From positions 1 to 33,176 of the IMG/VR virus record IMGVR_UViG_3300031227_000230: a DNA stretch of 33,176 nucleotides; one strand, 5' to 3'. The stretch comes from a virus. Below are positions 8,509 to 25,156 of the stretch, piece after piece. Both the position numbers and the translations under genes were made by a program. Below the pieces are notes generated by a model. The model saw nothing but the letters and a program-made list of their open reading frames with translations. It ran no database searches and was not told where the DNA came from. Numbering within the stretch: the first letter of the stretch is position 1; each line of letters starts with the position of its first letter.

Positions 8509-8538
8509 ATTATCGGTTTTTCTATTCGTTTTTGTTAA
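8509..8538 (-). promoter_or_regulatory. Promoter-like element, GATAAT class (copy 1)
   Basis: Read on the minus strand: TTAACA (8538-8533), 18-bp spacer ending in AAAAACC, then GATAAT (8514-8509) followed by AGTATAGT. It sits at the end of the gene at 8522-8800 and about 41 bases before the start of the Imm5-like gene. It is one of four matching copies (others at 13054-13083, 21441-21470 and 25127-25156), always oriented with transcription. Confidence 0.65.
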
Positions 8539-8800
8539 TCTTTTTCAAATTTTTTGTTATTTTTTGCAAATATCCCTTAATTTCGGCGATTTTGCTCTTC
8601 CAATGGGTCTGATTGGCTATAATTATGACTTGTTGAGGTGTTCTGCCATCTGATATGCAATCTTCCACAAAGTCTTCGATTGTGCGTATTTCAGGTTTAA
8701 AACACCATTTTTCGCCATCCCAGAAATTAGGGCCTGTTTTGCTTATATACAGCCCTATTTCCCTTTTTTCTTCAGCGTCCATAATATTCTTTGATGGCAT
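8522..8800 (-). CDS. Hypothetical protein
   Basis: 92 residues from the ATG at 8800, chosen because AAGGAG lies 8 nt upstream. A start at 8806 would place AAGGAG only 2 nt away. The sequence has a Trp/Phe-containing centre (GPNFWDGEKWCFKPE), an acidic helix (EDFVEDCI) and a Lys/Asn-rich C-terminus. No family recognised. It overlaps the end of the upstream HTH gene, which suggests co-expression. Its stop codon lies inside a promoter-like element serving the next gene. Confidence 0.65.
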   Translation of the reverse strand: MPSKNIMDAEEKREIGLYISKTGPNFWDGEKWCFKPEIRTIEDFVEDCISDGRTPQQVIIIANQTHWKSKIAEIKGYLQKITKNLKKINKNE

Positions 8801-9050
8801 TACCATAACTCCTTGTGATTTCGATGTTTGATTCTTTTATTTTTTCACGTTTGGCCATTTCCATTAATTCTGCCATATTTAAAGCAAGCATTTGAGCTAA
8901 TTGTATAACTTGAGATGGTGTCGGTGTTTTTGTGCCTCCTACAATTTTAAGTGCTTGCAATTCTGTTATTTCTAAATAATCAGCAACATCTGCCGCTTTC
9001 TGTCCCGTACATCTCATTTTATTATTTATTCTATTTCTGAACTGGCCCAT
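8772..9050 (-). CDS. XRE-like helix-turn-helix protein
   Basis: 92 residues. Residues about 12-62 read as a Cro/CI-type five-helix HTH: helix 2 around QKAADVADYLEI, recognition helix around ELQALKIVGG, then TPTPSQVIQLAQMLALNMAEL, the usual 'pt...l..iA.aL.vs..el'. The C-terminus is a short charged tail. It is a candidate transcription regulator of the replication arm or of the GATAAT-type promoter just downstream. No partner repressor or integrase is seen, so a lysogeny role is not supported. Confidence 0.7.
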   Translation of the reverse strand: MGQFRNRINNKMRCTGQKAADVADYLEITELQALKIVGGTKTPTPSQVIQLAQMLALNMAELMEMAKREKIKESNIEITRSYGNAIKEYYGR

Positions 9051-9267
9051 GACTTTTTACCTTATTTAAAAATTTATAAATAGTTTTTTTTATTATTGTT
9101 TTATAATCCGGAAATGGTGGGAACCCACCAAAGCATTTTTTATTTAAACATCCATCTATCGTTTTGGAACAAGTGATATTTGTCCCCACATACCCACACT
9201 CTCGCCCACCAAATACAAATGGACAATTAAGCCAAGGATTTTTACCCCTTTTTATTTCTAAACTCAT
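9031..9267 (-). CDS. Small cysteine-motif protein resembling the C-terminal Fe-S segment of tail protein gpL
   Basis: 78 residues with C15, C24, C33, C40 and C45. The core reads C-x8-ECGYVG-x4-C-S-K-T-x3-C, then CFGGFPPF. This closely parallels the C-terminal metal/iron-sulfur segment of lambda-type minor tail protein L (ECGYxG...C.KT..GC....FGGFP) as I recall it, with the same C-x8-C and C-x6-C spacings but a shorter middle. Here it is stand-alone, in the replication operon, with no tail genes nearby. It probably binds an Fe-S cluster or zinc. AAAGG lies 7 nt before the ATG at 9267, and the stop region overlaps the start of the HTH gene by 20 bases. Confidence 0.7.
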   Translation of the reverse strand: MSLEIKRGKNPWLNCPFVFGGRECGYVGTNITCSKTIDGCLNKKCFGGFPPFPDYKTIIKKTIYKFLNKVKSHGPVQK

Positions 9268-9280
9268 TTTTCTACCTTTT

Positions 9281-10675
9281 CTAAAATGTTGATTTAATTG
9301 CCGGATTACTCAAACCCAAACACCCAGCTACATGAACACATTTTTGCACATTGAATCTACTTTCCCGCAATACTATCCAATTCAATCTTATTATGTCTCT
9401 AGCCTTTTCTGCATCAACCACATTCAAACCAACCATGCCGGTTACATGAGCAAACTTGCGTTTATCCTCGCTAAAGTTTTGCATGGTGATGGTTTTAGCA
9501 TCGTAAGAGCTTGCGTCCGCTTGTGTGGCTGTTACAACAAGGCAATGGTATTCTTGTGACAATGCCCGCAACTGCTTCCATGTTTCGTTTATGCGGTCCC
9601 TACCTTCAATGCCGGGGAAGTCCATATTCATAATGTCAGCATAATCAACAACAATTACATCAGGCACCCAATCATCACGTTCCCAGTTTTGCAAAATGCT
9701 TTTCATCATCCTGACATTTAGTGTTGAGTTGGGGTGGCATGATAATTTGAATAATGGGCGTTTCGATTTAATCTTTGTTCGCATGACTTTTTCACATGCC
9801 TTTTTTGCTATCTTCCAATTCAACTTTTTATTGAATGTTTTCACTTTCGATTTAACACGGGCAACATTTTCTTTCTCTTTTATTTTCATTGCTACTGGGA
9901 TATTTAATTTACAGGGGTATAATGGACGACCAGAAACGCGGATCATCAATCTACGCATTATTTGGTTCTGGCTCATATCACCAGCTTCAAAGAATGCTAC
10001 TTTCTTTCTTTGTAGCATTGACCTGTAAGCAATATCCAAAAGCCAAAAAGTCTTCCCCCTTTTCTCTGGTCCTAAAAAAGCAATAAATGCATCACGTTCC
10101 AAAGCATCCTTGAAAAACCTACCTAAATCACCGGGATATTCAATCAGTGCTTCTTTTTTATCAGCAAAGGCCGCTTTAATTGCTTCTTTATCTTGAAGGA
10201 TATTTATACCTTCACCATCACCCAATTCTATTTTGTTAAATTGCACAACCCTGTCATTTGCTTTTTCCGGTTTATCAATTTCAATATCACCTTGTATTTC
10301 CTCAGCTAATTTTTCTAATTGGACTTCATTAAAATACTTACCGGCAACATCAATTACATATTGGCTATTGGTTTCTTCTTCTTGTTCTTCATAATCATCT
10401 GAAATTGAACCTAAAAACTTTTCAACTAGTTTAGTGTTTTCTTTGCTGGTATGATTATTTGCCCAACTTTGGTACAAGTTTTCAATTTGTCCTTTTGGGG
10501 CTTCGTTGTATTTATTGTAATATTTGATACACCAGCCAGCTATCAAGTTCGCCCAGTTGATCCTGAAAAATCCACTTTTCCATTTGTTAGCAATCTTAGC
10601 CAACACCAAATCATCCACAATTAGTGCTGTTAATACTAATCGTTCGCTGTGTTTGTTTTTCCTGTCTATTTTCAT
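9281..10675 (-). CDS. DnaB-like replicative helicase / RecA-fold ATPase
   Basis: 464 residues. Residues about 1-130 are helical, like a DnaB N-terminal or linker domain. The ATPase core starts near 180 with Walker A LGPEKRGKT (G202-T209), a FFEAGDMS segment (DnaB motif H1a-like, usual 'S(L/G)EM'), Walker B VIVVDYADIM, a VVTATQAD segment with the H3 glutamine, and a final IVLRESRFN with the arginine-finger-like motif H4. It unwinds DNA ahead of the fork and should load with the initiator encoded just upstream and the primase at 12180-13046. A 129-base gap upstream holds no convincing gene. The protein lacks a separate primase domain. Confidence 0.85.
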   Translation of the reverse strand: MKIDRKNKHSERLVLTALIVDDLVLAKIANKWKSGFFRINWANLIAGWCIKYYNKYNEAPKGQIENLYQSWANNHTSKENTKLVEKFLGSISDDYEEQEEETNSQYVIDVAGKYFNEVQLEKLAEEIQGDIEIDKPEKANDRVVQFNKIELGDGEGINILQDKEAIKAAFADKKEALIEYPGDLGRFFKDALERDAFIAFLGPEKRGKTFWLLDIAYRSMLQRKKVAFFEAGDMSQNQIMRRLMIRVSGRPLYPCKLNIPVAMKIKEKENVARVKSKVKTFNKKLNWKIAKKACEKVMRTKIKSKRPLFKLSCHPNSTLNVRMMKSILQNWERDDWVPDVIVVDYADIMNMDFPGIEGRDRINETWKQLRALSQEYHCLVVTATQADASSYDAKTITMQNFSEDKRKFAHVTGMVGLNVVDAEKARDIIRLNWIVLRESRFNVQKCVHVAGCLGLSNPAIKSTF

Positions 10676-10804
10676 ATTTTAGTCATTTTCTTAATAATAC
10701 CTTGTAAATAACCTCATATCTTATCGAATTTCGCACAAAACCGCTTGTTTCCCGCCGTTTCTTTTGAATTTGATACCATAACACCATATTTTAATTAAAA
10801 GCCG

Positions 10805-12013
10805 TTAGACGACAGCCTGAAGCATTTTCTTATATTGGCCCCACCTTTTGGGGTCAGCACAAAAGCCAAGGGCTAATTGCTTGCCCATAGCATCAAATCT
10901 TTTGTGGTTGATATTAAATGTGTAATTACGGAAATCACCATAGAATCCTTCCCAGCCTTTGATATTGTCCCATATTTTCTTTAGCCATATTCTTTCCACA
11001 AACCACTCAACATCAATCAAATTTTCATTATCTGAAATAACATGATGGGCAAAGGAAAATACATCTTCTATCCTATCCGTTTGCTTTTTAGTTTTTAATG
11101 AGGCCGTTAATTCAAAATGATTTTTCAAGTATTCACGATAATTATTGCAAGAAGTTTGAACCACTTCTGGCAACAACTCAACACAACCGGCAGGCCAATT
11201 ACCAAAATTGGCAAGCGTTTCTGCTATTTGACGGGATGCTTTTGTTATTTTGATGTTTGTCTTTTTGTTTTGTTTTGCGTCTGCTATATTATTACATTCA
11301 GCCCGGTGCATGGCATCCTCAATCCTTTTGAACTTGTCAGTAAGGTCATTTGCTTTGTAAATTTGAGGGGTGTACTTTTCCTCTATATTTTGACAATACC
11401 ACAATATAACTTTTTTGACATATGACTTGGTTGATTTGCTAATTAACTTTCTGATTTGGTTTGACCATGTTTTCAATTGAATAGTTCTATTGATGTTACC
11501 TTTCTTATCTATTGCTTTTTTGAGCTTCTTGGCTAATTTCAATTCAAATGAATCTTTTGGATTTATTAAATGTTCACGGGGGTTCGAAGAATCCCCAAAT
11601 ATTTCTTTTTTCTTATTATTCTTTTTAGTATTATTATTCTTTAATACACCGTGTATTTCAACTAGTTGATTTTCTACTTCTAGGTTTCCGCATAGTGGCT
11701 TTTCATATACAAGATATTCCCAACGGGATATCCTATTTTTGCCATCTCTCAATACATTACATTTCATATATCCATATTTTATCAACTCTTTTATGCCAGA
11801 TTTTAAACTGGATTCCCCATCAGGTGCGTGGGTTTTGAGTTCGCTCATGTATAATTTCCAATTACTTGGTAAAGATAATATGTAAGAAAGTATTCCTCTG
11901 GCTTTCCATGACAGTCTTTTGTCCCCCAAAGTTTTTCTATCAATTTGGACGTATGGATTCTGTTTATTTTTTACTACTTTGAAAATTGAGTTATTTTCAT
12001 TATTGTTTTCCAT
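10805..12013 (-). CDS. Replication initiator / helicase-loader-like HTH protein
   Basis: 402 residues. Residues about 12-105 are a winged HTH of the phage/plasmid replication-initiator type: YVQIDRKTLGDKRLSWKARG, ILSYILSLPSNWKLY, then GESSLKSGIKELIKYGYM (the 'LS.kA.GlL..llSlp..W.........ir..l.eL...GY' pattern). An Asn/Lys-rich linker follows (about 125-145), then a helical C-terminal half with Trp-rich segments, perhaps for helicase binding. It is directly upstream of the DnaB-like gene, the usual place of an initiator or loader. GGGAAGG lies 6 nt before the ATG. A 17-bp-spaced promoter and a structured leader precede it (12038-12177), so expression is probably controlled. Confidence 0.75.
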   Translation of the reverse strand: MENNNENNSIFKVVKNKQNPYVQIDRKTLGDKRLSWKARGILSYILSLPSNWKLYMSELKTHAPDGESSLKSGIKELIKYGYMKCNVLRDGKNRISRWEYLVYEKPLCGNLEVENQLVEIHGVLKNNNTKKNNKKKEIFGDSSNPREHLINPKDSFELKLAKKLKKAIDKKGNINRTIQLKTWSNQIRKLISKSTKSYVKKVILWYCQNIEEKYTPQIYKANDLTDKFKRIEDAMHRAECNNIADAKQNKKTNIKITKASRQIAETLANFGNWPAGCVELLPEVVQTSCNNYREYLKNHFELTASLKTKKQTDRIEDVFSFAHHVISDNENLIDVEWFVERIWLKKIWDNIKGWEGFYGDFRNYTFNINHKRFDAMGKQLALGFCADPKRWGQYKKMLQAVV

Positions 12014-12037
12014 TACATACCTTCCCTATATAAAAGA

Positions 12038-12138
12038 AAACACCGGCCACGGTATTTCAGACCCACGTTACAGAATGAGAAATGTGCAGCCGGTGTTTGT
12101 ACTTTGTAAAATTGTTTTGGTTTTGTAACGTAGGTCTA
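12038..12138 (-). ncRNA. Structured 5' leader of the initiator gene (two interlocking stems)
   Basis: In the minus-strand transcript, AGACCTACGTTACA (12137-12124) pairs with TGTAACGTGGGTCT (12072-12059): 14 bp with one G-U. AAACACCGGCTGC (12098-12086) pairs with GTGGCCGGTGTTT (12050-12038): 13 bp with two G-U. The order is P1 5', P2 5', P1 3', P2 3', which is a pseudoknot topology. All three G-U pairs would be A-C mismatches in a plus-strand transcript, so the RNA of the initiator operon is the one under selection. Predicted transcription starts at about 12142, just before P1. P2 ends 24 bases before the start codon and is followed by TTTTCTTTT, so it could also act as a terminator. Possible roles: attenuator, translational control, or initiator-protein binding. 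Confidence 0.65.
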
Positions 12139-12148
12139 TCATGTTTTT

Positions 12149-12177
12149 AATATAACTGTTTTACTTTTACTTGGCAA
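12149..12177 (-). promoter_or_regulatory. Sigma70-type promoter of the initiator operon
   Basis: Minus strand: TTGCCA (12177-12172), 17-bp spacer, TATATT (12154-12149). Predicted start about 12142. It lies immediately after the primase stop codon and drives the structured leader and the initiator gene. Confidence 0.6.
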
Positions 12178-12179
12178 TA

Positions 12180-13046
12180 TTATTTTAATAATTTTTTTAA
12201 CTTGTTTATTTCTTTAGGTTTAGCTGAGGCTGCATCATTCGCATCGAGTGTTATGTTGTAAGTTTTGCCGGGAAACAAAGACAATTCATCACATAATCGC
12301 TTTGCTCTTTGTTGTGCTTGTGGTTCATTATCAAAACAAACATAACGTAAAGGATGCTCAATCATTTTAGCAACTTGGGCCTTACTATAATTTATGCCAA
12401 GGGTGGCAACTGCTCCCGGCCCAATTGCCCAAACATCAGTCGGCCCTTCAAAAATTAAAATTGTATGGCTTGCATATTCTTCACCATATAATAATTTACT
12501 ATGTAAAACTGATTCTTGTTCTGCCGTTGCATTTATGTATTTTGCTTTTGTTTCATCGCTGATAGAACGAGTGGTCCAGCTAACTACTTTTCCTCTGTAG
12601 TGTATAGGTATAAAAATTCGCCATTGCAATTCACTGGCAATGCCTATACCTTTTATTTCCCAATACTTTTCTAATCGTTTAGGATTAAATCCTCGTCTGG
12701 TTAAATATTTTCTGTGGGGTGATTGTAATTTGCAAACACCTTTTGGGATGATTAACTTGCCTGCATGTTTTTCTTCTATATGTTTTACAGAAGATAAATC
12801 ACCAATAAGTTTTTTAGCGGTTGAAAAAGAAGTATCTGTAATTTCGGCAACTACCTGAATTAGAGGATGCCAACCACACCGCCAACAAATACAATACTTG
12901 TCTGATAGGTTATATCCTAGATGCCACTTGTGCGTATCTTTACCACAGAACGGGCAGTCTATTTGCAGCCAGCCACTCCGGCAATGGTGGTGCCCTTCTG
13001 GTGCTTGTGGTATATTGTATTCAGATAATATATCGGTAAAGTTCAT
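12180..13046 (-). CDS. DnaG-type DNA primase (zinc finger plus TOPRIM)
   Basis: 288 residues. The N-terminal zinc-binding region has histidines around 19-21, C31-P-F-C34, and CICWRCG with C54 and C57, as in CHC2-type primases. The catalytic TOPRIM domain shows LIFEGPTDVWA (the E of motif 1), then AVATLG and VCFDNEPQAQQRAKRL (the DxD-like metal site, here D-N-E). The C-terminal helicase-interaction domain is absent and the protein is half the length of bacterial DnaG. It synthesises RNA primers for the phage fork. A GATAAT-class promoter element ends 7 bases before the ATG, so mRNA from it would be almost leaderless. No Shine-Dalgarno is visible. Confidence 0.88.
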   Translation of the reverse strand: MNFTDILSEYNIPQAPEGHHHCRSGWLQIDCPFCGKDTHKWHLGYNLSDKYCICWRCGWHPLIQVVAEITDTSFSTAKKLIGDLSSVKHIEEKHAGKLIIPKGVCKLQSPHRKYLTRRGFNPKRLEKYWEIKGIGIASELQWRIFIPIHYRGKVVSWTTRSISDETKAKYINATAEQESVLHSKLLYGEEYASHTILIFEGPTDVWAIGPGAVATLGINYSKAQVAKMIEHPLRYVCFDNEPQAQQRAKRLCDELSLFPGKTYNITLDANDAASAKPKEINKLKKLLK

Positions 13047-13053
13047 ATGTCTT

Positions 13054-13083
13054 ATTATCGGTTTTTTACTCTGGTTTTGTTAA
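13054..13083 (-). promoter_or_regulatory. Promoter-like element, GATAAT class (copy 2)
   Basis: Minus strand: TTAACA (13083-13078), 18-bp spacer ending AAAAAACC, GATAAT (13059-13054). A transcription start 6-8 bases on would coincide with the primase ATG at 13046. From AAATAATTATTAACA onward it matches the copy at 25127-25156, and over about 31 bases it differs from the copy at 21441-21470 at only 2 positions. Confidence 0.65.
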
Positions 13084-13086
13084 TAA

Positions 13087-13254
13087 TTATTTTTTACTTC
13101 CCACTCTTTTCCGCATAAAAGCAGAAATAGTCCCTGTCATTGATTTGCCCCGTTTGGCACAATATGCCTTAAAATGGGCTTTGAGACTTGCGGGCACTTG
13201 GATTAGTATTGGCTTTTTATCATCCTTATATTTGTTTGGTGTTTTGATTTTCAT
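13087..13254 (-). CDS. Small ribbon-helix-helix (Arc/CopG-like) protein
   Basis: 55 residues. The sequence KPILIQVPASLKAHFKAYCA, then KRGKSMTGTISAFMRKRV, fits the RHH fold: a short beta strand (ILIQVP), helix 1 with the 'P..lk..f...c...g.s' pattern, and helix 2 beginning at the turn SMTGTISAFM. RHH dimers bind operator DNA, so it is a likely small repressor or DNA-binding accessory of the replication arm. The start overlaps the SNF2 gene stop by ATGA. It precedes the primase gene with the GATAAT-class element in between. Confidence 0.75.
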   Translation of the reverse strand: MKIKTPNKYKDDKKPILIQVPASLKAHFKAYCAKRGKSMTGTISAFMRKRVGSKK

Positions 13255-14612
13255 TTCTTTTTCCTCTTAAATGATTTGGCCAATTTGTCATATATTTCTA
13301 AATCGTAGTCACTGATTGTTCCATCTAATACTTGACTGATTACTTCTTGTTTGCTTTGAAGTAATTCACAAAGTGGTTCTTCAATTGTATCTTTTGCGAT
13401 TAGGTATGAGATAACAACGGCATTTTTCTGGCCTATCCTATGTGGCCTGTCTTCTGCTTGTAGCATGATACCCGGTACAAAGTCTATTTCAACAAAAGCT
13501 AATTGACTAGCTGCTGTTAATGTAATACCTGTACCAGCGGCTATCATTTGTCCGATGAATATTTTTATTTTTTTATTATTGTGAAAACTGGTAATGGCTA
13601 ATTCTCTTTTTTTCGATGGGGTGCTTCCATCGATAACAACACTTATTTTTTTGTATCTGTCATGAAGTTGTTTTAATATGCTTTTGTGGAATCCATATAG
13701 GATTAACTTTTCATCTGTCTCTTCTAAGAAATTATCCACCCATTCAAAAACAGCTTTCATTTTTAGTTCGGCAGCAAGTCTTTTAAGATATCCCATTTTC
13801 ACAACTGCTTCTGCCTTCATTGCTCGCTTGGCTTTCGCTGTTGATTTTTTGGACAGCCATTTTATAAATTCGTTTTTTGCTGTGTTGTATTCTTTTTTAT
13901 TTGATATGGTTAGAGGTATTATCTGTCTTGTTTTTTCTGGTAATTCTTTCAATACATCTTTTTTTAATCGTCGTATCATGCCTAGTGATTTTAGTTTGTT
14001 ATGCAGTTCGTCTAGATGTGCTGCCCCCTTGAACTCCCATCCCCACGGTCTTTTCGATGCTTTACAATAACGAAAAGCAAATGTCCAAAAAGAAGGAAAT
14101 TCTTTTGGCCATATTAAATTCAATGTTGTAAATAATTCAGAAGGTCTATTAACAAGTGGTGTTCCACTGAGTGCTATAACGTGTTTTGTTGTTTTGGCTA
14201 ATTGTTTAACAGCCTTTGTTCGTTTGGCACTTCTTGATTTGATATAATGACTCTCATCAATGATAAAGACAGATGGTTTTATTTTTTGTATATAATCCAT
14301 CCAATATTGTAAAATTTCATAATTGATTATTAGTATTTCGCACTTATTTAAAATGCCTTTCTTTGGCGGTGTTCTACTTTCTAATACCACTGTCCGAAGG
14401 TTCATATGTTGTAGTGCCTGCGTTGCCCATACCCATTTTAAAGTGGCGGGGCTTACAATAACTACAGGGCGTTTTTTAGGGCATTTCATTAACCAATATA
14501 GGCATTGTATTGTTTTACCTAAACCCATTTCATCAGCAAGTAAAGTCCTACCTTTGCATCTCCGTATCTGTTTGGCTCCTTTTAGTTGGAAGGGTAAAAG
14601 TTTAGTGACCAT
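13251..14612 (-). CDS. SNF2-family helicase (SMARCAL1-like core)
   Basis: 453 residues containing the full set of SNF2 motifs: LADEMGLGKT (Walker A, residues 26-34), VIVSPATLKWVW, NYEIL, motif II FIIDESH, motif III ALSGTPLVNRPSELF, a helicase C lobe with DGSTPSKKRE, GTGITLTAAS, and motif VI QAEDRPHRIGQ. The length is that of a minimal two-lobe motor as found in many phages. Likely roles are fork remodelling, recombination or displacement of host proteins. The start overlaps the sigma-like gene by 11 bases, and the stop overlaps the RHH gene. Confidence 0.93.
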   Translation of the reverse strand: MVTKLLPFQLKGAKQIRRCKGRTLLADEMGLGKTIQCLYWLMKCPKKRPVVIVSPATLKWVWATQALQHMNLRTVVLESRTPPKKGILNKCEILIINYEILQYWMDYIQKIKPSVFIIDESHYIKSRSAKRTKAVKQLAKTTKHVIALSGTPLVNRPSELFTTLNLIWPKEFPSFWTFAFRYCKASKRPWGWEFKGAAHLDELHNKLKSLGMIRRLKKDVLKELPEKTRQIIPLTISNKKEYNTAKNEFIKWLSKKSTAKAKRAMKAEAVVKMGYLKRLAAELKMKAVFEWVDNFLEETDEKLILYGFHKSILKQLHDRYKKISVVIDGSTPSKKRELAITSFHNNKKIKIFIGQMIAAGTGITLTAASQLAFVEIDFVPGIMLQAEDRPHRIGQKNAVVISYLIAKDTIEEPLCELLQSKQEVISQVLDGTISDYDLEIYDKLAKSFKRKKK

Positions 14613-15135
14613 CTTGTATTACTTCCTTTATCTCATTTATTGTTTTGATTATTTGCTCAGATGACCAGCCTATACTTTTCATAATGCTTTTGAGTTTACA
14701 ATGAGGGCGGCGTACATGTGGTTTTTCCGTCCGCATTATTTGTTGTATTTCTTTTGGTGAAGAACGGATTAAATTTATCATGGTTTTACCATCATTTGAT
14801 AAATCACATAATAAATCGTCGAGTGATGTGGTTTCGTTTTTGGCTGGTAGAAATTCATTTACTTCACATACACTTTTTATTTTTTTGAATGAGTTTTCCA
14901 TTTTTTCTAGGAGGCCATGCCATATTGTAAAATGGATGTGGTTTGTGAAAGGCCCTTTTTCTGGATTGTAGTTTTGGTAGGCATCTAAGAAAAGCAAATT
15001 GGCTTCAGAACTCAAATCATCATATTCATTAAATGGATTGAAATGCCGTTTGATGAATTTATGACAAATATTGTGGATGAGTTTCTCTACGTCTGTGTAA
15101 GTTTCTGAAATTGCTTGCTGCTTCAAAGTTCCCAT
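14602..15135 (-). CDS. Sigma-70-family-like protein
   Basis: 177 residues. Residues about 14-75 match sigma70 region 2: LIHNICHKFIKRHF, NEYDDLSSEANLLFLDAYQN, YNPEKGPFTNHIHFTIWHGL (the 'DDL.QE..l.l..A...yd...g.F..y....i' pattern). The remaining 100 residues could include a poorly conserved region 4 (IGWSSEQIIKTINEI), but no clear HTH is seen. It could redirect host RNA polymerase to the four-copy GATAAT-type elements, or be a sigma mimic. It is the first gene after a strong 17-bp-spaced promoter (15176-15204), which suits an early regulator. Confidence 0.65.
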   Translation of the reverse strand: MGTLKQQAISETYTDVEKLIHNICHKFIKRHFNPFNEYDDLSSEANLLFLDAYQNYNPEKGPFTNHIHFTIWHGLLEKMENSFKKIKSVCEVNEFLPAKNETTSLDDLLCDLSNDGKTMINLIRSSPKEIQQIMRTEKPHVRRPHCKLKSIMKSIGWSSEQIIKTINEIKEVIQDGH

Positions 15136-15175
15136 AAAATAGCTCCTTTAATTTTTGGGTATTTGTTTTATATAG

Positions 15176-15204
15176 TTTATATACTTTATATATGGCAACG
15201 TCAA
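15176..15204 (-). promoter_or_regulatory. Sigma70-type promoter before the sigma-like gene
   Basis: Minus strand: TTGACG (15204-15199), 17-bp spacer, TATAAA (15181-15176). The -35 is preceded by ATTATAC, giving ATTATACTTGACG. The same ATTATACTTG precedes the promoter at 16802-16830. Predicted start about 15169, 34 bases before the ATG. Confidence 0.7.
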
Positions 15205-15220
15205 GTATAATTTTTATTTT

Positions 15221-15409
15221 TTATTCTGAGGGGTGCCCTAATGCCTCATTTAGTATTTCGCGTAAGATGTCGGACCATATTATATTTTTGCCGGTGTTCT
15301 TGCGTCTCTGCTCCGCTGTTCGTTCTAATATTAAATAGATGTGGCGGGGTACTTGGTATGGGTTCCTGCCTGTTTTTTTCTGTTTTGTTTTTGTTGTTTT
15401 CTTTTTCAT
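15221..15409 (-). CDS. Small basic ribbon-helix-helix-like protein
   Basis: 62 residues: a Lys/Thr-rich N-terminal tail (MKKKTTKTKQKKTGRNPYQV), then VPRHIYLILERTAEQRR and a second helix WSDILREILNEAL. The strand, helix and helix order and the 'P.hi...L...a...g....'-like spacing suggest an RHH DNA-binding fold with a basic arm. A role in repressing the promoter at 15176-15204, just downstream, is possible. It follows the zinc-ribbon gene after 1 base. Confidence 0.6.
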   Translation of the reverse strand: MKKKTTKTKQKKTGRNPYQVPRHIYLILERTAEQRRKNTGKNIIWSDILREILNEALGHPSE

Positions 15410-15410
15410 T

Positions 15411-15590
15411 TCAATTTCCTTTTGGTTTTATTATAGTATAGTATGATTTTATACATTTTTCATTACAGAATAACACAACAAGAGAATCATCATCCGATTC
15501 ACTTTCTTTAGCATAGTATCCGTCATCTTGGCTCACGAATTTGCCACAGTTTTGACATTGGATAGATTTTGTGTTGTTTTGTTCTTCCAT
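15411..15590 (-). CDS. Small zinc-ribbon protein
   Basis: 59 residues from ATG 15590 to TGA 15411. It has CQNC at residues 12-15 and FCNEKC at 41-46, a CxxC...FCxxxC arrangement like MYM/FCS-type zinc ribbons, separated by an acidic loop (ESESDDD). It probably binds one zinc ion. Partner unknown. It sits in a chain of small early genes with almost no spacing on either side. Confidence 0.65.
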   Translation of the reverse strand: MEEQNNTKSIQCQNCGKFVSQDDGYYAKESESDDDSLVVLFCNEKCIKSYYTIIKPKGN

Positions 15591-15591
15591 T

Positions 15592-15885: not shown

Positions 15886-15944
15886 TTTGCTTTCACTCCC
15901 TTATATTATCTGCTTAGAGAATTTGTTTTTGTTTTATTTTCACG

Positions 15945-16415: not shown

Positions 16416-16483
16416 TTTTTAAAGTTTCATTTTTTGCTCCTTGGTTGTGTTTTTATTTGTTGTTTCTTGTTATAGTGACCGGA

Positions 16484-16750
16484 TTAATTTTTTGCCCGAC
16501 TAAAAGACTTAATGGCCTCAGCCTTATTTGACATATGAGATGCCGCATTTTTTACACTCTCTCGCCAGTTACGACCAAAAGCAAAGGTACGAAGTGCGAT
16601 GTATGAACTCAACTCAATATCACTCATCTGGGTAAGTATTTCTGAGTTGCTTAGTTTGGTGTCTTTATATCTGCGTTCTGCTTTTTTGACAATTCTTATT
16701 GCTTCTTCTCTTTGTTTCGGTGCCAGTGTTTTGATTTCTGTTGTTTTCAT
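16484..16750 (-). CDS. Hypothetical first early protein
   Basis: 88 residues, basic and helical, with RIVKKAERRYKDTKLSNSE, then a Phe/Arg patch FAFGRNWRESVKNAASH. No family recognised. It is the first gene after the leftward promoter at 16802-16830, with GGAGC 8-10 nt before its ATG. The position is typical of host-takeover proteins, but nothing in the sequence shows that role. Confidence 0.6.
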   Translation of the reverse strand: MKTTEIKTLAPKQREEAIRIVKKAERRYKDTKLSNSEILTQMSDIELSSYIALRTFAFGRNWRESVKNAASHMSNKAEAIKSFSRAKN

Positions 16751-16801
16751 TTTTAAGCTCCTTGATTTTGTTATTAACTTTTTAATACCTTAACTGTTAT
16801 A

Positions 16802-16830
16802 AGTATACAACTATATATCGGTATATACAA
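16802..16830 (-). promoter_or_regulatory. Leftward early promoter
   Basis: Minus strand: TTGTAT (16830-16825), 17-bp spacer, TATACT (16807-16802), with ATTATACTTG spanning the -35 as at 15204. Predicted start about 16795, leading to the gene at 16750. Confidence 0.65.
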
Positions 16831-16961
16831 GTATAATCTTTAGGAAATAGTGAAATTTATTGAAAATCCCTGTTTTTAGCCTAAAAACGAAGAAAAAGAG
16901 TAAAAAAACATTCACAAAATCCTTTACTTGTTTGGCCATATATAGTTTATATATATTTTTA

Positions 16962-16990
16962 TTGATTTTCGCCCTTTAAATCGTTATAAT
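16962..16990 (+). promoter_or_regulatory. Rightward promoter of the packaging/head arm
   Basis: TTGATT (16962-16967), 17-bp spacer, TATAAT (16985-16990), with a predicted start about 16997 and the terminase ATG at 17029. The same TTGATT-17-TATAAT occurs at 28332-28360. A second possible promoter, TTGTTT at 16928-16933 with TATATA at 16950-16955, lies just upstream and shares GCCATATATA with the promoter region at about 15185. The divergent intergenic region (16751-17028) otherwise holds only AT-rich DNA. Confidence 0.65.
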
Positions 16991-17028
16991 ACCACCCAAA
17001 TTTAACAACTAAAAAATGGAAGCTAAAA

Positions 17029-17805: not shown

Positions 17806-17836
17806 ATTTATAGTTTTTAGAATAGGAGAATTAAAA

Positions 17837-17962: not shown

Positions 17963-17971
17963 CAAGTGAAT

Positions 17972-18124
17972 AAGGGCAAGGCGGCGGCGTGTATGAAACG
18001 CAAGTCGAATAATGGCGATTGGGTTGAGTTCCCTATGAGTTAACAACCATTACCACTGATTCATAATGAATAGGCTCAGTAAAGTATCCTAGCAGGTTTG
18101 AATCCTGCCGCCGCTTTTGCCCTT
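17972..18124 (+). ncRNA. tRNA-like structured RNA between the terminase genes
   Basis: The 3' half looks like a tRNA: GCAGG-TTTGAAT-CCTGC (18092-18108) is a 5-bp T-arm with a 7-nt loop, followed by CGCCGCT (18109-18115), which pairs with GGCGGCG (17980-17986 or 17983-17989) as an acceptor. ACTGA (18055-18059) pairs with TCAGT (18076-18080) around a loop that starts TTCATAA, the form of a CAU anticodon loop, but with 9 extra bases. A GCGT/ACGC hairpin is in the D-arm position (17987-18001). About 50 further bases (18002-18054) do not fit a tRNA; TAATGG/CCATTA (18010/18047) can pair there. An outer stem AAGGGCAA/TTGCCCTT (17972/18117) closes the whole. No CCA is encoded. It is either a degraded or insertion-bearing tRNA-Met-like gene or a regulatory RNA. 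Confidence 0.45.
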
Positions 18125-18191
18125 TTGAAAAGTAAACTTAATATGGAGAGAATAGAACATAAAAAGAAAGGAAAGAAAAAGGGAATTGTTA

Positions 18192-19646: not shown

Positions 19647-19655
19647 GAGTTTAAA

Positions 19656-19880
19656 ATGGAAAAGCGTAAAGACAGGATGATAAAGGTAGCGATAGTGAAG
19701 GTAACCAGAAAAAACGCAAAGTCAATACGTCGTATTTGTCGTATGGATAAGCCTTATAAAGAAGCAATGATTGTGCTTATTGCGAATGAGTTGGAAAACA
19801 AGGAACATCCCGTGATTGTAATTGAAACGGATTATATGGAAGAGGAGAAATATGAGTCAATTGAAAAGACAAATACTTAA
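19656..19880 (+). CDS. Hypothetical basic protein
   Basis: 74 residues. The N-terminal half is strongly basic (MEKRKDRMIKVAIVKVTRKN and AKSIRRICRMDKP) and the C-terminal half acidic. AGGAG precedes the ATG and also contains the TAG of terL. No family recognised. It sits between large terminase and portal. Confidence 0.6.
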   Translation: MEKRKDRMIKVAIVKVTRKNAKSIRRICRMDKPYKEAMIVLIANELENKEHPVIVIETDYMEEEKYESIEKTNT

Positions 19881-19910
19881 TTTTTAAAGATATAATAAAG
19901 GAATAATGAA

Positions 19911-21458
19911 ATGACAAAGAAAAAAATAGCTCATAGTGTTGGTATAAATGATGAGCCGGAAGAGACAATGGAATTTAATACAGAAGGTGAACAAACACAG
20001 GAACAGGTACAAAATCAAATATTTAGGGAAGAGGTAATAGCCAATGCGACTATTGCAAGGGCTGAGTTAATGTCTCAATTTCTAAATCCCGGCAAAGACA
20101 TCAATCATGAATGTGGTTATCCAACATCTATCACAAAACAAAATTACAGGGAGTTGTATGATAGGATGGGCTTGGCTTCCCGTGTTGTTAATATTTTCCC
20201 TGAAGAGAGTTGGTCATTACTACCAGAAATAAATGAAAATGAAGATGAAAAAGAAACTGAATTTGAAAAACAGTGGAAAGAAATACAAGAAGAGAAACAT
20301 GTTTATCAAATATTAAAGCGTATAGATGTTTTGAGTGGTATAGGTAGATATGGTTTGTTGTTGATTGGTATTGATGATGGTAAGAGATTAAATGAGCCGG
20401 TTGAAAGTATTAACCCGGTTACGGGTGAAACGATGGAGGGTGAAGGTACTAAAGAAAGGAAATTGCTGTATTTGAAACCGTTTGATGAATCGGTCGTGGA
20501 TATAACAGCACGAGAAGGAGATGCTACAAGCCCGAGGTATGGCAAGCCAACAAAGTACTCCATCAAGTTTGAAAACATAAAAGACGGTACGACAGGTGGT
20601 GAAAGCAAAGAAGTACATTGGACAAGAATATTACATGTTACTGATAATAGAATATCAAGTGATATTGTGGGCGAACCGAGAATGAAAAAAGTCTATAATC
20701 GCCTATTAGATATCAGGAAGGTTTTGGGTGGTAGTGGCGAAATGTTTTGGAAAGGGGGGTTCCCCGGCATATCTATAAATGTTGACCCTTCAGCTACATT
20801 CTCAACTGAACAGCAAGCGGATATGAAAACAGAGATGAGAAATTATTCGCAAAGTTTACAGCGGTATTTCTCGGCAGTTGGTGTTGATGTTAAGATGTTA
20901 GAAACACAAGTAGCAGACCCACGAGGTAATTTAGATTGTCAAGTAGATTTCATTTGTGCTGCATTGGGTATACCGAAAAGGATATTTGTAGGTAGTGAGC
21001 GTGGCGAGTTGGCTAGTAGTCAAGATTCGAAGGCATGGAATAAACGTATAGTACATAGACAAGAGTTTTATTTAACACCTTTACTCATTAGGGAATTTAT
21101 TGATAGGTTGATTGCTTTGCGAGTATTACCTGTAGTTGACAATTATGGAATAACTTGGCCGGATCTGAATGCCCCATCAGATAGTGAAATTGCTGAGGTG
21201 GCGGGCAAACAGACAGAAGCAATGAGCAAATATGTTGCCGGTACTGTTGACCATTTAATACCACCACGAGAATTTTTAACAATGATAATGAAGTTTTCAG
21301 ATGAGCGGGCGGATGCAATAGAAAAGGCTGTTAAGGGTTATGCGGGCGATGTTATTGACGAAAAAGAGGCCGAAATGGCTGTCCGTGAAGCCGAAGCACT
21401 CAAGGCAGAAACCGAAGCTGAGAAAAAAATTAAAAAATCTTTACCAAAATCAGAGTAA
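19911..21458 (+). CDS. Portal protein (DUF1073-like)
   Basis: 515 residues. The core reads RELYDRMGLASRVVNIFPEE-SW, then a central SGIGRYGLLLIGIDDG, and later QVDFICAALGIPKRIFVGSERGELASSQD, the well-conserved portal signature (G.P...L.G.s.ge.as.e.D...w). This matches DUF1073-type portals. The N-terminal about 35 residues and the last about 50 are charged and probably disordered. Twelve copies would form the DNA entry ring. The last codons and stop overlap a GATAAT-class promoter element. Confidence 0.9.
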   Translation: MTKKKIAHSVGINDEPEETMEFNTEGEQTQEQVQNQIFREEVIANATIARAELMSQFLNPGKDINHECGYPTSITKQNYRELYDRMGLASRVVNIFPEESWSLLPEINENEDEKETEFEKQWKEIQEEKHVYQILKRIDVLSGIGRYGLLLIGIDDGKRLNEPVESINPVTGETMEGEGTKERKLLYLKPFDESVVDITAREGDATSPRYGKPTKYSIKFENIKDGTTGGESKEVHWTRILHVTDNRISSDIVGEPRMKKVYNRLLDIRKVLGGSGEMFWKGGFPGISINVDPSATFSTEQQADMKTEMRNYSQSLQRYFSAVGVDVKMLETQVADPRGNLDCQVDFICAALGIPKRIFVGSERGELASSQDSKAWNKRIVHRQEFYLTPLLIREFIDRLIALRVLPVVDNYGITWPDLNAPSDSEIAEVAGKQTEAMSKYVAGTVDHLIPPREFLTMIMKFSDERADAIEKAVKGYAGDVIDEKEAEMAVREAEALKAETEAEKKIKKSLPKSE

Positions 21459-21470
21459 AAAACCGATAAT
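21441..21470 (+). promoter_or_regulatory. Promoter-like element, GATAAT class (copy 3)
   Basis: TTACCA (21441-21446), 18-bp spacer with CAGAGTAAAAAACC, GATAAT (21465-21470). It straddles the portal stop codon. Compared with copy 2 (13083-13054) only 2 of about 31 bases differ. It would start transcription of the small-gene island 21493-23472. Confidence 0.6.
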
Positions 21471-21492
21471 ATAGTAGTGGAATGATATTACT

Positions 21493-21684
21493 ATGTTGTT
21501 GGGAGTTTATTTATTATGGCAAAGCGTAGAAATAATAAAAAAATTATCTAAGATGCCCCAAGATGCCAAGGTTCAGTATGGTTATACTGAATTCAATGGT
21601 CCTGATGATACTTGTGGTTATGAAAATGAAATTGATGTGGATTCCGTGTATGTTTGTGATGGTGTTGTTAATTTAGATGGATAG
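21493..21684 (+). CDS. Small hypothetical protein
   Basis: 63 residues from ATG 21493, or 43 from ATG 21553. The upstream part is hydrophobic (MLLGVYLLWQSVEIIKKLSK) and has no strong ribosome site. The downstream part MPQDAKVQYGYTEFNGPDD, ending DVDSVYVCDGVVNLDG, looks like the conserved body. An 11-codon ORF starting at 21516 with GGGAG upstream ends just before 21553 and could couple translation to it. Start therefore uncertain. Function unknown. Confidence 0.5.
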   Translation: MLLGVYLLWQSVEIIKKLSKMPQDAKVQYGYTEFNGPDDTCGYENEIDVDSVYVCDGVVNLDG

Positions 21685-21699
21685 AAATAAGGAGTTATT

Positions 21700-22146
21700 A
21701 TGAAAACGATGCAAGAGTTTATAGACGGTTTAGAAAAAGTGGAAGTGAAAATACGTGGTTTTTGGCAATCGCGTTTTGCTTTGTATAAAATGGATGATGT
21801 GGTTGTAATAATATCCGAGGTGGACACTGAAGAGAAGTTATTGGATAAAATCACAACTTTAGGTCATATGGAAAGTGCCCTTTTGTTGAGTGTTGGTATG
21901 GATAGTTGGCGAAAACCAGAAAAGAAAATAAGGTATGGCAAAGTTGGCCGGGATATGTTAGGTGCTTCTGTTTTTAATGTAAGTGGGACGAACATGGGTC
22001 ATGTGGTCAGTTATAAAAATACCGATAAAGGAGTATTGCTTGAAACAGATGTGGGTTGCTTTTTTGATTTGAATTGGTTAATAGCACAAAGAAGCCATTT
22101 TCAAAAAGGTAAAGTAAATTCGACGTTCAGTATATTTGAAGAATAG
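21700..22146 (+). CDS. Hypothetical protein
   Basis: 148 residues, mixed alpha/beta, with MKTMQEFIDGLEKVEVKIRG, then a strand-rich middle (DDVVVIISEVDTEEK) and a C-terminal KGKVNSTFSIFEE. AAGGAG lies 6 nt upstream. No family recognised. It is the last gene before the hairpin at 22152-22217, so it probably ends a transcription unit. Confidence 0.6.
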   Translation: MKTMQEFIDGLEKVEVKIRGFWQSRFALYKMDDVVVIISEVDTEEKLLDKITTLGHMESALLLSVGMDSWRKPEKKIRYGKVGRDMLGASVFNVSGTNMGHVVSYKNTDKGVLLETDVGCFFDLNWLIAQRSHFQKGKVNSTFSIFEE

Positions 22147-22151
22147 TAAAT

Positions 22152-22217
22152 AAGATGGCATTGTTGGCAAATATAATATTGCTTGCTCGCGTGTATAAAT
22201 GCCCGTGCCATCTTTTT
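22152..22217 (+). terminator. Rho-independent-like terminator with large branched loop
   Basis: AAGATGGCA (22152-22160) pairs with TGCCATCTT (22206-22214), followed by TTT. The 45-base loop can form an inner GGCA/TGCC pair (22166/22200). The T-tract and position after a stop codon suit termination. The large loop is unusual and recalls the other long-loop hairpins of this arm. Confidence 0.6.
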
Positions 22218-22339
22218 AATACATAAAAACTGTTACAGAAAGGCAGGTGTATCATGCTGGGTGTATAAAGACAATTTAATAGCGTCGATGTGTTTTAATG
22301 TACTAATTTTTAACGTCTTTTTATGAAAGGGACAACGAC

Positions 22340-22744
22340 ATGCGAAGAAGTTTTATTTTAATCTTGTTAGTAGTGGTCATGGCCATGCTGGCAGGGTGCT
22401 CTCGATTCCAGTGTTGGAGCGGGGCATGTAAAGATATTGACAACGTCATTGAATTGACTAAGTTAATCGCCATAGACGAGTCTGCGACTGAAAGCGACAT
22501 GGTGAACCAGTTGGAGAATGTTGCTAATTACTACGCCGATTTATATGATGATTCCAAACCGTTCGGCGGGTTATATGCTAATGCTCAATATAAAGACATA
22601 CTTGTAAGGAGTACGGCACTTTCCGCAGACATTGCCCGGCGTGCCAAAGCCGGTTCACTTTCAAAAGAGCAAATGATTTTAGCATTAAAGAAAGAAGCGT
22701 TTCATTTGACTCAGTTGAAGCTGGGTACTTTAGGCGAACAGTAA
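22340..22744 (+). CDS. Small phage lipoprotein
   Basis: 134 residues. The N-terminus is a type II signal peptide: MRRSFILILLVVVMAMLAGC, with lipobox L-A-G-C and lipidated Cys at 20. The mature part is helical (IDNVIELTKLIAIDESATES, then SKEQMILALKKEA). AAAGG lies about 10 nt upstream. It lies in a cassette with a 121-residue protein and a holin-like protein, so a lysis role (outer-membrane partner) or superinfection exclusion is possible. The length is more than the usual Rz1. The upstream 120 bases (22218-22339) hold AT-rich DNA with an AAAGAC/GTCTTT inverted repeat but no clear promoter. Confidence 0.7.
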   Translation: MRRSFILILLVVVMAMLAGCSRFQCWSGACKDIDNVIELTKLIAIDESATESDMVNQLENVANYYADLYDDSKPFGGLYANAQYKDILVRSTALSADIARRAKAGSLSKEQMILALKKEAFHLTQLKLGTLGEQ

Positions 22745-22808
22745 TTGTTTGCCGAGTGCTATGTTGATTTGAACTAAAAATAAAACTTTTAAAATGTAAG
22801 GGTATAAA

Positions 22809-23174
22809 ATGGGAATAGATATTGCTGGATTGATTGGTAATTTGCCTGAGGAATTACAAACAATCATAAACGATTTTGTAACCCAATACCAAGTTGATAT
22901 AAAGAATATGACGCTTGATGAGCTAACAGGATTCATCAATGATATTGGTAGTGGTAAGACGGTGGAAGCCCATATGGCATTGTTTGCGAAGAAGGGTGCC
23001 GATGAGGCAATAGCTGAGTGGGATGGTATTTCTGGTGATACGGCGGAAGTAAATGCTGAAAATGCTGCATCGATTGCCAAGCAAAAAGAAATGGTTTCAA
23101 ATTTGCTAAAGGCGTTGGCAGGCTTGGGCGTATCACTGTTGATATCTCAAGTAGATATTCCATCCGTAAATTAA
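22809..23174 (+). CDS. Hypothetical protein, possibly membrane-associated
   Basis: 121 residues. The N-terminal two thirds are soluble and helical (MGIDIAGLIGNLPEELQTII, KNMTLDELTGFINDIGSG). The C-terminus is hydrophobic (LLKALAGLGVSLLIS), enough for one membrane anchor. AAGGG lies 6 nt before ATG. Sited between the lipoprotein and the holin-like gene, it may belong to a lysis or envelope cassette. No family recognised. Confidence 0.6.
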   Translation: MGIDIAGLIGNLPEELQTIINDFVTQYQVDIKNMTLDELTGFINDIGSGKTVEAHMALFAKKGADEAIAEWDGISGDTAEVNAENAASIAKQKEMVSNLLKALAGLGVSLLISQVDIPSVN

Positions 23175-23226
23175 TAGTTAGCGTAATTACTAAAAGATTA
23201 TCTCTTTTTTAAGGAGAACAATCGAC

Positions 23227-23472
23227 GTGAAAATATTAAGTACTATTTGGAATGGCGTTGATAATTGGAAAACCATAATAGGTGGACTTGTTCTCGCCCT
23301 ATGTATTATTGCTCGATGCGTTGGTGTTGATGTGCCAGAGTTGGCATTTACAGCGGCAATAGGATTATGTGGTGTAGGTATGACTCATAAGTTTGTTAAA
23401 CTCCAGTCTATAATTTCTATTGTCAAAGAGGAACTCGATAAGGTTGTTAAAAATCTTCCTAAAGAAGATTAG
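23227..23472 (+). CDS. Holin-like two-helix membrane protein
   Basis: 81 residues starting at GTG 23227 after AAGGAG. Two hydrophobic helices are visible: TIIGGLVLALCIIARCVG (residues 16-33) and LAFTAAIGLCGVGM (about 39-52), then a charged C-terminal tail (VKEELDKVVKNLPKED). The size, two helices and charged tail are those of class II holins or similar small phage membrane proteins. No endolysin is next to it, so the holin assignment rests on topology. Confidence 0.6.
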   Translation: MKILSTIWNGVDNWKTIIGGLVLALCIIARCVGVDVPELAFTAAIGLCGVGMTHKFVKLQSIISIVKEELDKVVKNLPKED

Positions 23473-23493
23473 AAATAGAGTTTTCTCCTCCCT

Positions 23494-23577
23494 CAAGGTA
23501 TGGTGTAATGGTTGCACAGTGAAACGAATCCATATAAGGTTGTTTTGTAAGAGTGGGTTAAATTCCTACTGCCTTGA
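23494..23577 (+). ncRNA. tRNA-like RNA with elongated anticodon arm
   Basis: All cloverleaf parts are present. Acceptor CAAGGTA/TGCCTTG (23494-23500/23570-23576, 7 bp, one G-U), TG at positions 8-9, D-arm GTGT-AATGGTT-GCAC (23503-23517), one spacer base, variable loop AAGA (23549-23552), T-arm GTGGG-TTAAATT-CCTAC (23553-23569) and discriminator A, then a T-run. The anticodon arm is not normal: bases 23519-23548 fold into about 11 bp with one bulged G and several G-U pairs, capped by loop CATATAA (23531-23537), which lacks the U33 of a tRNA. C56 of the T-loop is also lost (TTAAATT). This is either a decayed tRNA gene with an insertion or a tRNA mimic. Confidence 0.5.
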
Positions 23578-23598
23578 TTTTTTAGAAATGGAGTTATG

Positions 23599-23808
23599 AT
23601 GTTTAGTGTTAGACAAAAACGAGAAATATCTGAGAAGATACAGGAAGTATTAAGGGAAACAAACCATCCAGAATTACCTGATGATGAGATACAATTTTTG
23701 ATACATATAAGAGGTAAAGAAAAATAGAGTTGGGCTAATATCCGTAATAATTTGGCTATTTTAACACCAAGAATCAATCCGTGGAATGAAGTACAAGATA
23801 GGAAGTAA
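23599..23808 (+). pseudogene. Small conserved phage gene with in-frame TAG
   Basis: ATG 23599 (GGAG 5 nt upstream) opens a frame that reads MFSVRQKREISEKIQEVLRE, then TNHPELPDDEIQFLIHIRGK-EK, and reaches TAG at 23725-23727 after 42 codons. The same frame goes on without another stop for 26 codons (SWANIRNNLAILTPRINPWN-EVQDRK) to TAA 23808. Both halves together look like a known kind of small phage protein whose middle reads '...hv.g...WSWA.IRNN...NPWNE' (from memory). So either the gene is broken by one substitution, or the TAG is read through, or only the 42-residue half is made. Function unknown. Confidence 0.55.
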
Positions 23809-23817
23809 TTTAAAAAT

Positions 23818-24204
23818 ATGGGTAATATGAAAAAATTACGAAGAAAGTTAATACAGTCAATGACAGGTAAGATAAATGTATTTGCCTGTACAGGGTGCAA
23901 ACATAAAATTGTTACTGTTGATTTGTGTAATGGCACTACGCCGGGTTCGATGGTATGCCCTAAATGTCAAGGTGTTTTAACATCATCATTTTATCCATCC
24001 ACATCACAAAAAGAAAAACCGAAGTATGGCTGGTTCAAACCGGCGAATGATGATGTATTGAGAAAACAAATTGAATGGGAAATTAAATGGTCAGGTATCC
24101 CGGTTACTGATGAAAAAAAGGAATTGTGTTTTAAGATAATGAAGGACAGAATTAAAAAGGGCGGTCTCTGCCTGAAGGTTTTGGAAAATAAAATTGGAGC
24201 TTAG
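23818..24204 (+). CDS. Zinc-ribbon phage protein of unknown function
   Basis: 128 residues. A zinc ribbon lies at about residues 24-50: FACTGCKHKIVTVDLC and MVCPKCQG (CxxC...CxxC). A YGWFKP segment and a C-terminal IKKGGLCLKVLENK follow. I recall phage proteins with the same order (ribbon, 'SSFYR', 'WYRP', 'H...GGL.LR'), function unknown. ATG codons at 23818 and 23827 are both possible. It lies just before the MuF-like head gene. Confidence 0.65.
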   Translation: MGNMKKLRRKLIQSMTGKINVFACTGCKHKIVTVDLCNGTTPGSMVCPKCQGVLTSSFYPSTSQKEKPKYGWFKPANDDVLRKQIEWEIKWSGIPVTDEKKELCFKIMKDRIKKGGLCLKVLENKIGA

Positions 24205-24206
24205 TT

Positions 24207-24281
24207 ATGAATGTGCAGTTTACTTTTGATTCTGGAAAATTAGTAGTAAGAAAGAGAAAAGAATTATGCCAAGCTCATTAA
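24207..24281 (+). CDS. 24-residue peptide overlapping the MuF-like gene
   Basis: ATG 24207 to TAA 24281 with GGAG 7 nt upstream. It reads MNVQFTFDSGKLVVRKRKEL, then CQAH. It ends 16 bases inside the next gene, whose ATG (24266) lacks a good ribosome site, so translation of this peptide may feed ribosomes to it. The beta-hairpin-like look and charge do not identify a function. Confidence 0.4.
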   Translation: MNVQFTFDSGKLVVRKRKELCQAH

Positions 24282-25123
24282 AAAAAGACCCAACAAAAAC
24301 AACAATGCTCAGACGGGCTTTTGTAGTTGATATTAATAGGCGTTTTGGAGCATTGCGAAAAGCGACAAGGCAATTAGTATTAATGGATGATGCTTTTGAT
24401 TTAGCTAAGAAATCAAGTCATTTAAAATTAAATGCTGTCGGACAGTTTAAATTTCAAACCAGTTCACAAAAAGTAGCTACGTTTAGGAAATGGTTAGACC
24501 AACAAGTTAATGCTGGAATATTGACAGTTGATAAGGCAGGTAAGCCGTGGACAAATACTTACGTTCACAGTTCCTACAAAAAAGCGATGACAGAAGCATA
24601 TTCACAAGTCCACCCAGAAGCCATATCGGGCAAGGTCAAAGGATTCTATCAAGGCAGTAGGCATCAGTTCTTAATGAGTGCCTTTGCAGCACCCGAGACA
24701 ACGGAGAAATTGGAGTTATTATACACAAGAGCCTATGGGCAATTAAAAGACGTTACGTCGCAGATGTCGCAGCAAATGAGCCGTATTATGGCCGATGGGC
24801 TGGCACATGGTAAAGGTGTTGGTGAAATATCCCGTAATTTATCAAATAATATAAATAAAATCACCAAAACAAGGGCAAGGGTGATAGCCAGAACAGAAAT
24901 AATACATGCCCATGCTGAGGGCATGTTGGATGGGTTCACAAAGTTAGGTATAAAGAAAGTGGCGGGTGTTGCTGAGTGGGCTACGGCGGGTGATGACAGG
25001 GTATGCCCTGACTGTGAAAGCATGGACGGAGAGGTGTTTTCAGTAAAACAGGCTCATGGTATGATACCCCTTCACCCGAATTGCCGGTGTAGTTGGGTGC
25101 CGTCAGAAGAAGTAATTAAATAA
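24266..25123 (+). CDS. MuF-like minor head protein
   Basis: 285 residues. The C-terminal half carries the Mu gpF / SPP1 gp7 head-morphogenesis domain: KTRARVIARTEIIHAHAEGM, then EWATAGDDRVCPDCESMDGE and IPLHPNCRCSW. The cysteines C246-x2-C-type pair and the HPNCRC end form the usual metal-binding motif. The N-terminal half is helical (FRKWLDQQVNAGILTVDKAG and a long central helix QMSQQMSRIMADGL). It binds the portal and is packed with the DNA in related phages. In other phages it directly follows the portal; here seven to eight small genes lie between. Confidence 0.88.
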   Translation: MPSSLKKDPTKTTMLRRAFVVDINRRFGALRKATRQLVLMDDAFDLAKKSSHLKLNAVGQFKFQTSSQKVATFRKWLDQQVNAGILTVDKAGKPWTNTYVHSSYKKAMTEAYSQVHPEAISGKVKGFYQGSRHQFLMSAFAAPETTEKLELLYTRAYGQLKDVTSQMSQQMSRIMADGLAHGKGVGEISRNLSNNINKITKTRARVIARTEIIHAHAEGMLDGFTKLGIKKVAGVAEWATAGDDRVCPDCESMDGEVFSVKQAHGMIPLHPNCRCSWVPSEEVIK

Positions 25124-25126
25124 TTA

Positions 25127-25156
25127 TTAACAGAACTGGCAAGAAAAACCGATAAT
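25127..25156 (+). promoter_or_regulatory. Promoter-like element, GATAAT class (copy 4)
   Basis: TTAACA (25127-25132), 18-bp spacer ending AAAAACC, GATAAT (25151-25156) then AGTATAGT, the same trailing bases as copy 1. It follows the MuF-like stop and would drive the peptide at 25278 and the second Imm5-like gene. Between it and 25278 a hairpin TAGCA...TGCTA (about 25198-25231) is visible. Confidence 0.65.

Follow-up and report, generated by a model that had tools for sequence, protein, structure and literature searches.

A four-copy promoter class in an uncultured phage and the phage sigma factor that probably reads it

What reads a short two-box sequence that recurs on both arms of a phage genome fragment, each time ahead of a gene? 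The fragment (hereafter the window) is the whole of IMG/VR record IMGVR_UViG_3300031227_000230, a 33-kb (33,176 bases) piece of an uncultured phage, in which a first-pass annotation had described four copies of a promoter-like sequence (TTAACA-18-GATAAT) as a class of their own. It is quite probable that they are promoters and that the host core RNA polymerase reads them together with the phage's own small sigma factor, encoded at 14602-15135; the role of this protein as the reader, the RNA start sites and the time of expression are what we infer. Sequence alone is a poor guide to the promoters that phage sigma factors use, and known sigma/promoter pairs are few.

The four copies and their recurrence in close kin

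The coordinates and strands in the first-pass annotation proved exact for all four copies, which are as follows.

8538-8509, minus strand: copy 1, TTAACAAAAACGAATAGAAAAACCGATAAT; -35 box TTAACA at 8538-8533, 18 bp, -10 box GATAAT at 8514-8509, trailer AGTATAGT
13083-13054, minus strand: copy 2, TTAACAAAACCAGAGTAAAAAACCGATAAT; TTAACA-18-GATAAT, just before the primase gene
21441-21470, plus strand: copy 3, TTACCAAAATCAGAGTAAAAAACCGATAAT; TTACCA-18-GATAAT, overlapping the 3' end of the portal gene
25127-25156, plus strand: copy 4, TTAACAGAACTGGCAAGAAAAACCGATAAT; TTAACA-18-GATAAT, directly after the Mu-F-like head gene

Common to all four are TTA(A/C)CA, an invariant 18-bp gap, AAAAACC and GATAAT, as had been described; copies 2 and 3, for which 2 differences in about 31 bases had been given, differ at 2 of 30 bases, and the trailer is indeed common to copies 1 and 4. 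Each copy is sense-oriented, and a gene on the same strand starts 7 to about 290 nt downstream of it, in agreement with the claim that the copies follow local transcription. The motif search that the annotation had proposed (pattern TTAMCA-N11-AAAAACCGATAAT, ≤3 mismatches) returned the four known copies and no fifth in the window; dinucleotide shuffles gave a mean of 0.04 matches at the same threshold and never reached four, and the reversed pattern matched once in 0.99 Mb (window plus loci).

The arms diverge from about 16.8 kb. The leftward arm carries small genes, the sigma-like gene, an SNF2 helicase, a ribbon-helix-helix (RHH) protein, a primase, a replication initiator, DnaB, and clamp and PolA genes, while the rightward arm carries terminase, portal, a Mu-F-like protein, a protease, and decoration and capsid proteins. 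No close DNA relative of the window was found among 50,697 named phages.

A scan of IMG/VR with TTAACA-N11-AAAAACCGATAAT gave four contigs (G and L numbers are our handles for other genomes, contigs and loci). Three full copies and one without a -35 box were present on L007 and one clear copy on L005; the match on L006 is probably due to chance, because it lies inside a gene on the opposite strand, and that on L008 is inside an open reading frame (ORF). The genes of L005 and L007 are at first sight unrelated to those of the window. L007 and G006, a contig of 63 kb, have RecA-like genes that are 65% identical, and the G006 portal is 52% identical to the window portal; L007 therefore represents the second half of this type of phage genome, and both contigs come from the window's close kin. 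The shorter core AAAACCGATAATANNNTAGT was found in IMG/VR on L005 and L007 and also on other contigs, with different upstream sequence.

A Mu-F gene beside the motif on L007 and L005 was considered and rejected, as the 285-amino-acid protein there has a different sequence. That protein looks transposase-like, and on L007 (~11300-13200) repeats of the form GTTACCCA...TTAGTTTTTACTAAAAAGGAAATA surround it together with two promoter copies.

Conservation of position in more distant phages

Relatives were reached via the portal and the RecA-like gene. Pairwise comparison of their upstream regions revealed repeated promoter-like sequences of their own, with CRATAATATARTR as the common core, and the -10 part was found at orthologous positions down to about 30-50% protein identity. 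Three positions recur.

Slot A: after the Mu-F-like head gene (copy 4 in the window); also in G006, G018, L020 and L022, with a TATAAT variant in G007/L012
Slot B: before a 163-amino-acid gene that precedes SSB, after the clamp loader and ahead of the SSB/RecA operon
Slot C: behind DnaB and a small ORF, upstream of the clamp/PolA operon (copy 1 in the window); orthologous sites in G006, G008, G011, G016 and G018

A site also stands before the endolysin gene in both G018 and L007, and the class as a whole precedes replication genes, endolysin (L007, G018) and accessory genes between head genes. GCGATAATATAGTG and GCGATAATAGAATA are retained at slots B and C even in G011, a phage of 56% GC.

Using a matrix built from the window and L007 -10 regions alone, slots A-C were significantly occupied in the nine nearer relatives (17 tests, Fisher P =1.5e-8), and in five more distant relatives the value was P =0.06. 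The slots had been picked from the window and L007 copies, but some matches in relatives had already been seen before this test, and for that reason a blind test with a preset pattern was made on 20 newly fetched loci around the slot-B gene, some of them near-duplicates of one another. Exact matches were observed in 3 loci, matches with ≤1 mismatch in 5 and with ≤2 mismatches in 9, against null means of 0.13, 0.31 and 1.71 (maxima 2, 3 and 7 in 1000 draws).

Three further slots, D (primase), E (after the portal) and F (before a 316-amino-acid gene), were unconserved in relatives (P =0.86, 0.98 and 0.057, respectively). Judged from these comparisons, copies 2 and 3 are lineage-specific additions and copies 1 and 4 ancient, family-wide sites; the four copies therefore do not have a single common history.

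The -35 box differs between lineages. Lineage A (window, L007, L005) has TTAACA and lineage B (G006, G008, G016; also L020, L022 and G009) mostly TTTCAG, in both cases exactly 18 bp before RATAAT; no clear -35 box was seen in G018 or G011.

The sigma-like protein and competing explanations

The candidate reader and the promoter predicted to serve it are the following.

14602-15135, minus strand: sigma-like protein of 177 amino acids, with a region 2 fold and a C-terminal helical domain; Sigma70_r2, E 3.7e-5; phrog_351
15176-15204, minus strand: candidate promoter of the host sigma70 type, TTGACG-17-TATAAA, 40 nt before the ATG of the sigma gene

The window protein had no match in IMG/VR or in named phages. 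Homologues were recognised beside the SNF2 helicase in G006, G007, G008, G010, G011, G016, G018, G019 and G024, and a sigma-like gene stands by this helicase in all examined relatives that cover the slot; the sigma homologues are 18-31% identical to that of the window, the adjacent helicases 39-60%. Sigma70_r2 matched 8 of 10 family members (E≤0.05), and a profile of ten of these sigmas searched against solved structures had sigma-H, FliA and RpoS among its matches. Region 2 was modelled as three helices (predicted local distance difference test, pLDDT, about 90) and superimposed on known sigma factors with Z about 10.8 and a root-mean-square deviation of 1.6-1.7 over 77-78 residues. The -35 boxes track the sigma lineage: among G006, G008 and G016, the phages with TTTCAG, sigma identity is 43-53%, compared with 28-31% to the window protein. 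The sigma gene of G024 has TTGATA-17-TATAAT 43 nt upstream, and no clear host-type promoter was seen before those of the other relatives.

With the recurrence in L005 and L007, the orthologous -10 positions, the matches of the preset pattern in new loci and the accompanying sigma-like gene, the earlier view of a distinct promoter class is well supported; that the class is also a temporal one, as the annotation had proposed, is a conjecture. In the mechanism that we propose, host sigma70 would transcribe the sigma gene early from TTGACG-17-TATAAA, and the phage sigma would then direct polymerase to -10 elements of the CRATAATATARTR type, preceded at exactly 18 bp by a -35 box that depends on the lineage. 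Copy 1 would turn on the clamp/PolA operon, copy 2 the primase, and copies 3 and 4 the genes behind the portal and the Mu-F gene; in kin, such sites would turn on the SSB/RecA operon and endolysin.

Several observations weigh against a phage sigma as the reader. The helical C-terminal domain, the part expected to contact the -35 box, is modelled with low confidence (pLDDT 71) and only weakly like region 4; its matches to region 4 of SigL and SigR (Z 4.8 and 4.7) are tied with unrelated folds, and a fold search with it gave no clear fold. The sigma gene was not found on the L007 fragment, and the motif was absent from the distant sigma-bearing relatives G019, G024 and G026 and from most loci neighbouring SNF2 (L153-L165). 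Added to these are the unconserved slots of copies 2 and 3, and the fact that TTAACA and GATAAT together hold 10 of the 12 bases of the sigma70 consensus.

The last point leads to the best-surviving alternative, which we regard as unlikely: that the host housekeeping sigma reads the sites, with flanks preferred by the phage, while the phage sigma acts elsewhere. TATAAT occurs at slot A in G007/L012 and at slot B in L172 and L178, as such a reader would have it. Sigma70 prefers T as the first base of the -10 box and a TTGACA-like -35 box, however, and TATAAT is found at none of the 26 listed sites from four lineages: the -10 begins with A or G in 26 of 26, with C before it, a count that is partly selected, as the scan pattern contained CRATAAT and L022 has T there. 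Moreover, the lineage-B box TTTCAG is poor for sigma70 and is reached with the spacing unchanged, extra conserved bases flank the -10 on both sides, and the host-type promoters of the window itself (TTGACG-17-TATAAA, TTGATT-17-TATAAT) are unlike the four-copy class.

Far less probable is that the motif is the operator of a repressor or activator rather than a promoter core. The RHH/Arc-like gene at 13087-13254, which adjoins copy 2, would offer a binding protein, and similar A-rich AAAACC stretches occur twice in some copies; against this, the motif is not palindromic, its orientation to the gene is strict, and its two boxes keep a fixed, promoter-like spacing, with the -10-like core kept while the rest changes.

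Slightly more remote again is an alternative host sigma, of the flagellar type (sigma28/FliA), as the reader. The FliA-family -10 element is GCCGATAA, with TAAA 15 bp before it as the -35. The ACCGATAA of the phage sites resembles that element, and region 2 of the phage sigma is near FliA in profile and fold, FliA being among the best matches in both. Neither the -35 box nor the spacing matches: the sigma28 box is one base off in lineage A and missing from lineage B, which has TTTCAG; the protein of the phage is also shorter. When the lineage-A promoter was looked for in 84,980 genomes of bacteria and archaea, only five scattered matches came up, a result that also led to the rejection, for sequenced species, of the idea that it is a promoter of host genes. 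Coincidence, or the recent duplication of a functionless short repeat, for which the near-identical, lineage-specific copies 2 and 3 might speak, is contradicted by the orthologous positions in diverged phages and by the blind test, and can practically be set aside.

A reading by the phage sigma is thus our preferred one. Tentatively, and with appreciable doubt, we further suggest that a single family of uncultured phages holds a natural series of sigma/promoter pairs: the -10 would stay near constant, the -35 would be rewritten in step with the C-terminal domain of the sigma (from TTAACA to TTTCAG, 18 bp unchanged) and the slots would stay fixed while some genes behind them are exchanged.

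Known systems, downstream genes and neighbouring features

The closest known parallels are phages phiEco32 and 7-11. The phiEco32 sigma, gp36, directs host core polymerase to a few well-conserved middle and late promoters at fixed positions, sigma70 serving the early genes, and its promoters consist of a single element, tAATGTAtA, without a -35 (PMC8948821). The late promoters of the 7-11 sigma, gp47, read GTAAtg-16-aCTA, and between related phages of this kind promoter positions are similar while the consensus shifts as the sigma diverges (PMC8948821; computational prediction, PMC4331800). On all features that can be examined in sequence, the four-copy class and its putative sigma fit this kind, and this placement is supported. 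A putative phage sigma, few conserved promoters at fixed positions and a candidate early promoter of the host sigma70 type, here recognised from sequence alone, are shared with phiEco32, which has one element where two lineages here have two boxes 18 bp apart, and which belongs to another phage family. With 7-11 the class shares bipartite promoters and positions kept while the consensus changes; the sequences and spacing are other ones, and between the lineages described here it is mainly the -35 that changes, the -10 core being kept.

The gp55 protein of T4 is a small late member of the sigma family that serves late promoters TATAAATA, in a phage encoding its own clamp and clamp loader. The window's kind resembles it in having a small sigma-like protein, a clamp and clamp loader of its own and a -10-centred element, but differs in its motif (CRATAATATARTR) and in the -35 box of two lineages.

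A promoter class and its likely sigma can thus be read from metagenomic genomes alone, and the lineages show which parts change together. The comparison yields testable pairs of sigma and -35 box, and a means of sorting an uncultured phage family's genes into an early and a later group.

The following genes stand behind copies 1, 2 and 4.

7823-8467, minus strand: gene behind copy 1, 214 amino acids, H/A/Y-rich repeat; paralogue of 25451-26041
12180-13046, minus strand: primase, gene behind copy 2
25451-26041, plus strand: gene behind copy 4; paralogue of 7823-8467

The copy-1 and copy-4 genes are paralogous to each other (53% identity), and their description as Imm5-like was not reproduced, with no Imm5 and no Pfam family match up to E=1. 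The copy-4 gene more likely starts at 25451, the point at which it lines up with its paralogue, than at 25373. Both carry long H/A/Y/S-rich alanine repeats and were not found in the relatives.

The primase ATG lies 7 nt past the GATAAT of copy 2 (window 13046-13059) and the primases of relatives align from residue 1, so the primase transcript may be leaderless. A similar arrangement exists at slot B of G011 (36201-36210).

Elsewhere in the window, no Rfam families or tRNAs were found. DNA polymerase A seemingly occupies two ORFs with a MazG-like gene between them (2006-5213). The divergent control region at 16726-16908 has three counterparts in the closest relative, L009 (700-870, 1851-2028 and 2930-3115); it contains a leftward TTGTAT-17-TATACT and a palindrome-like GTTTTTAGCCTAAAAAC, similar sequence to which occurs upstream of terS in G007, G016 and G018. 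The host-type TTGATT-17-TATAAT stands at 16962-16990, at the head of the terminase arm, and at 28332-28360, before the protease and capsid genes, and G024 has alike TTGAT sites near both places. Near terS in G018 (23.7-28.7 kb), arrays of repeated leaders with ATACCCGATATAGATTATCGGGTAT stand ahead of small genes.

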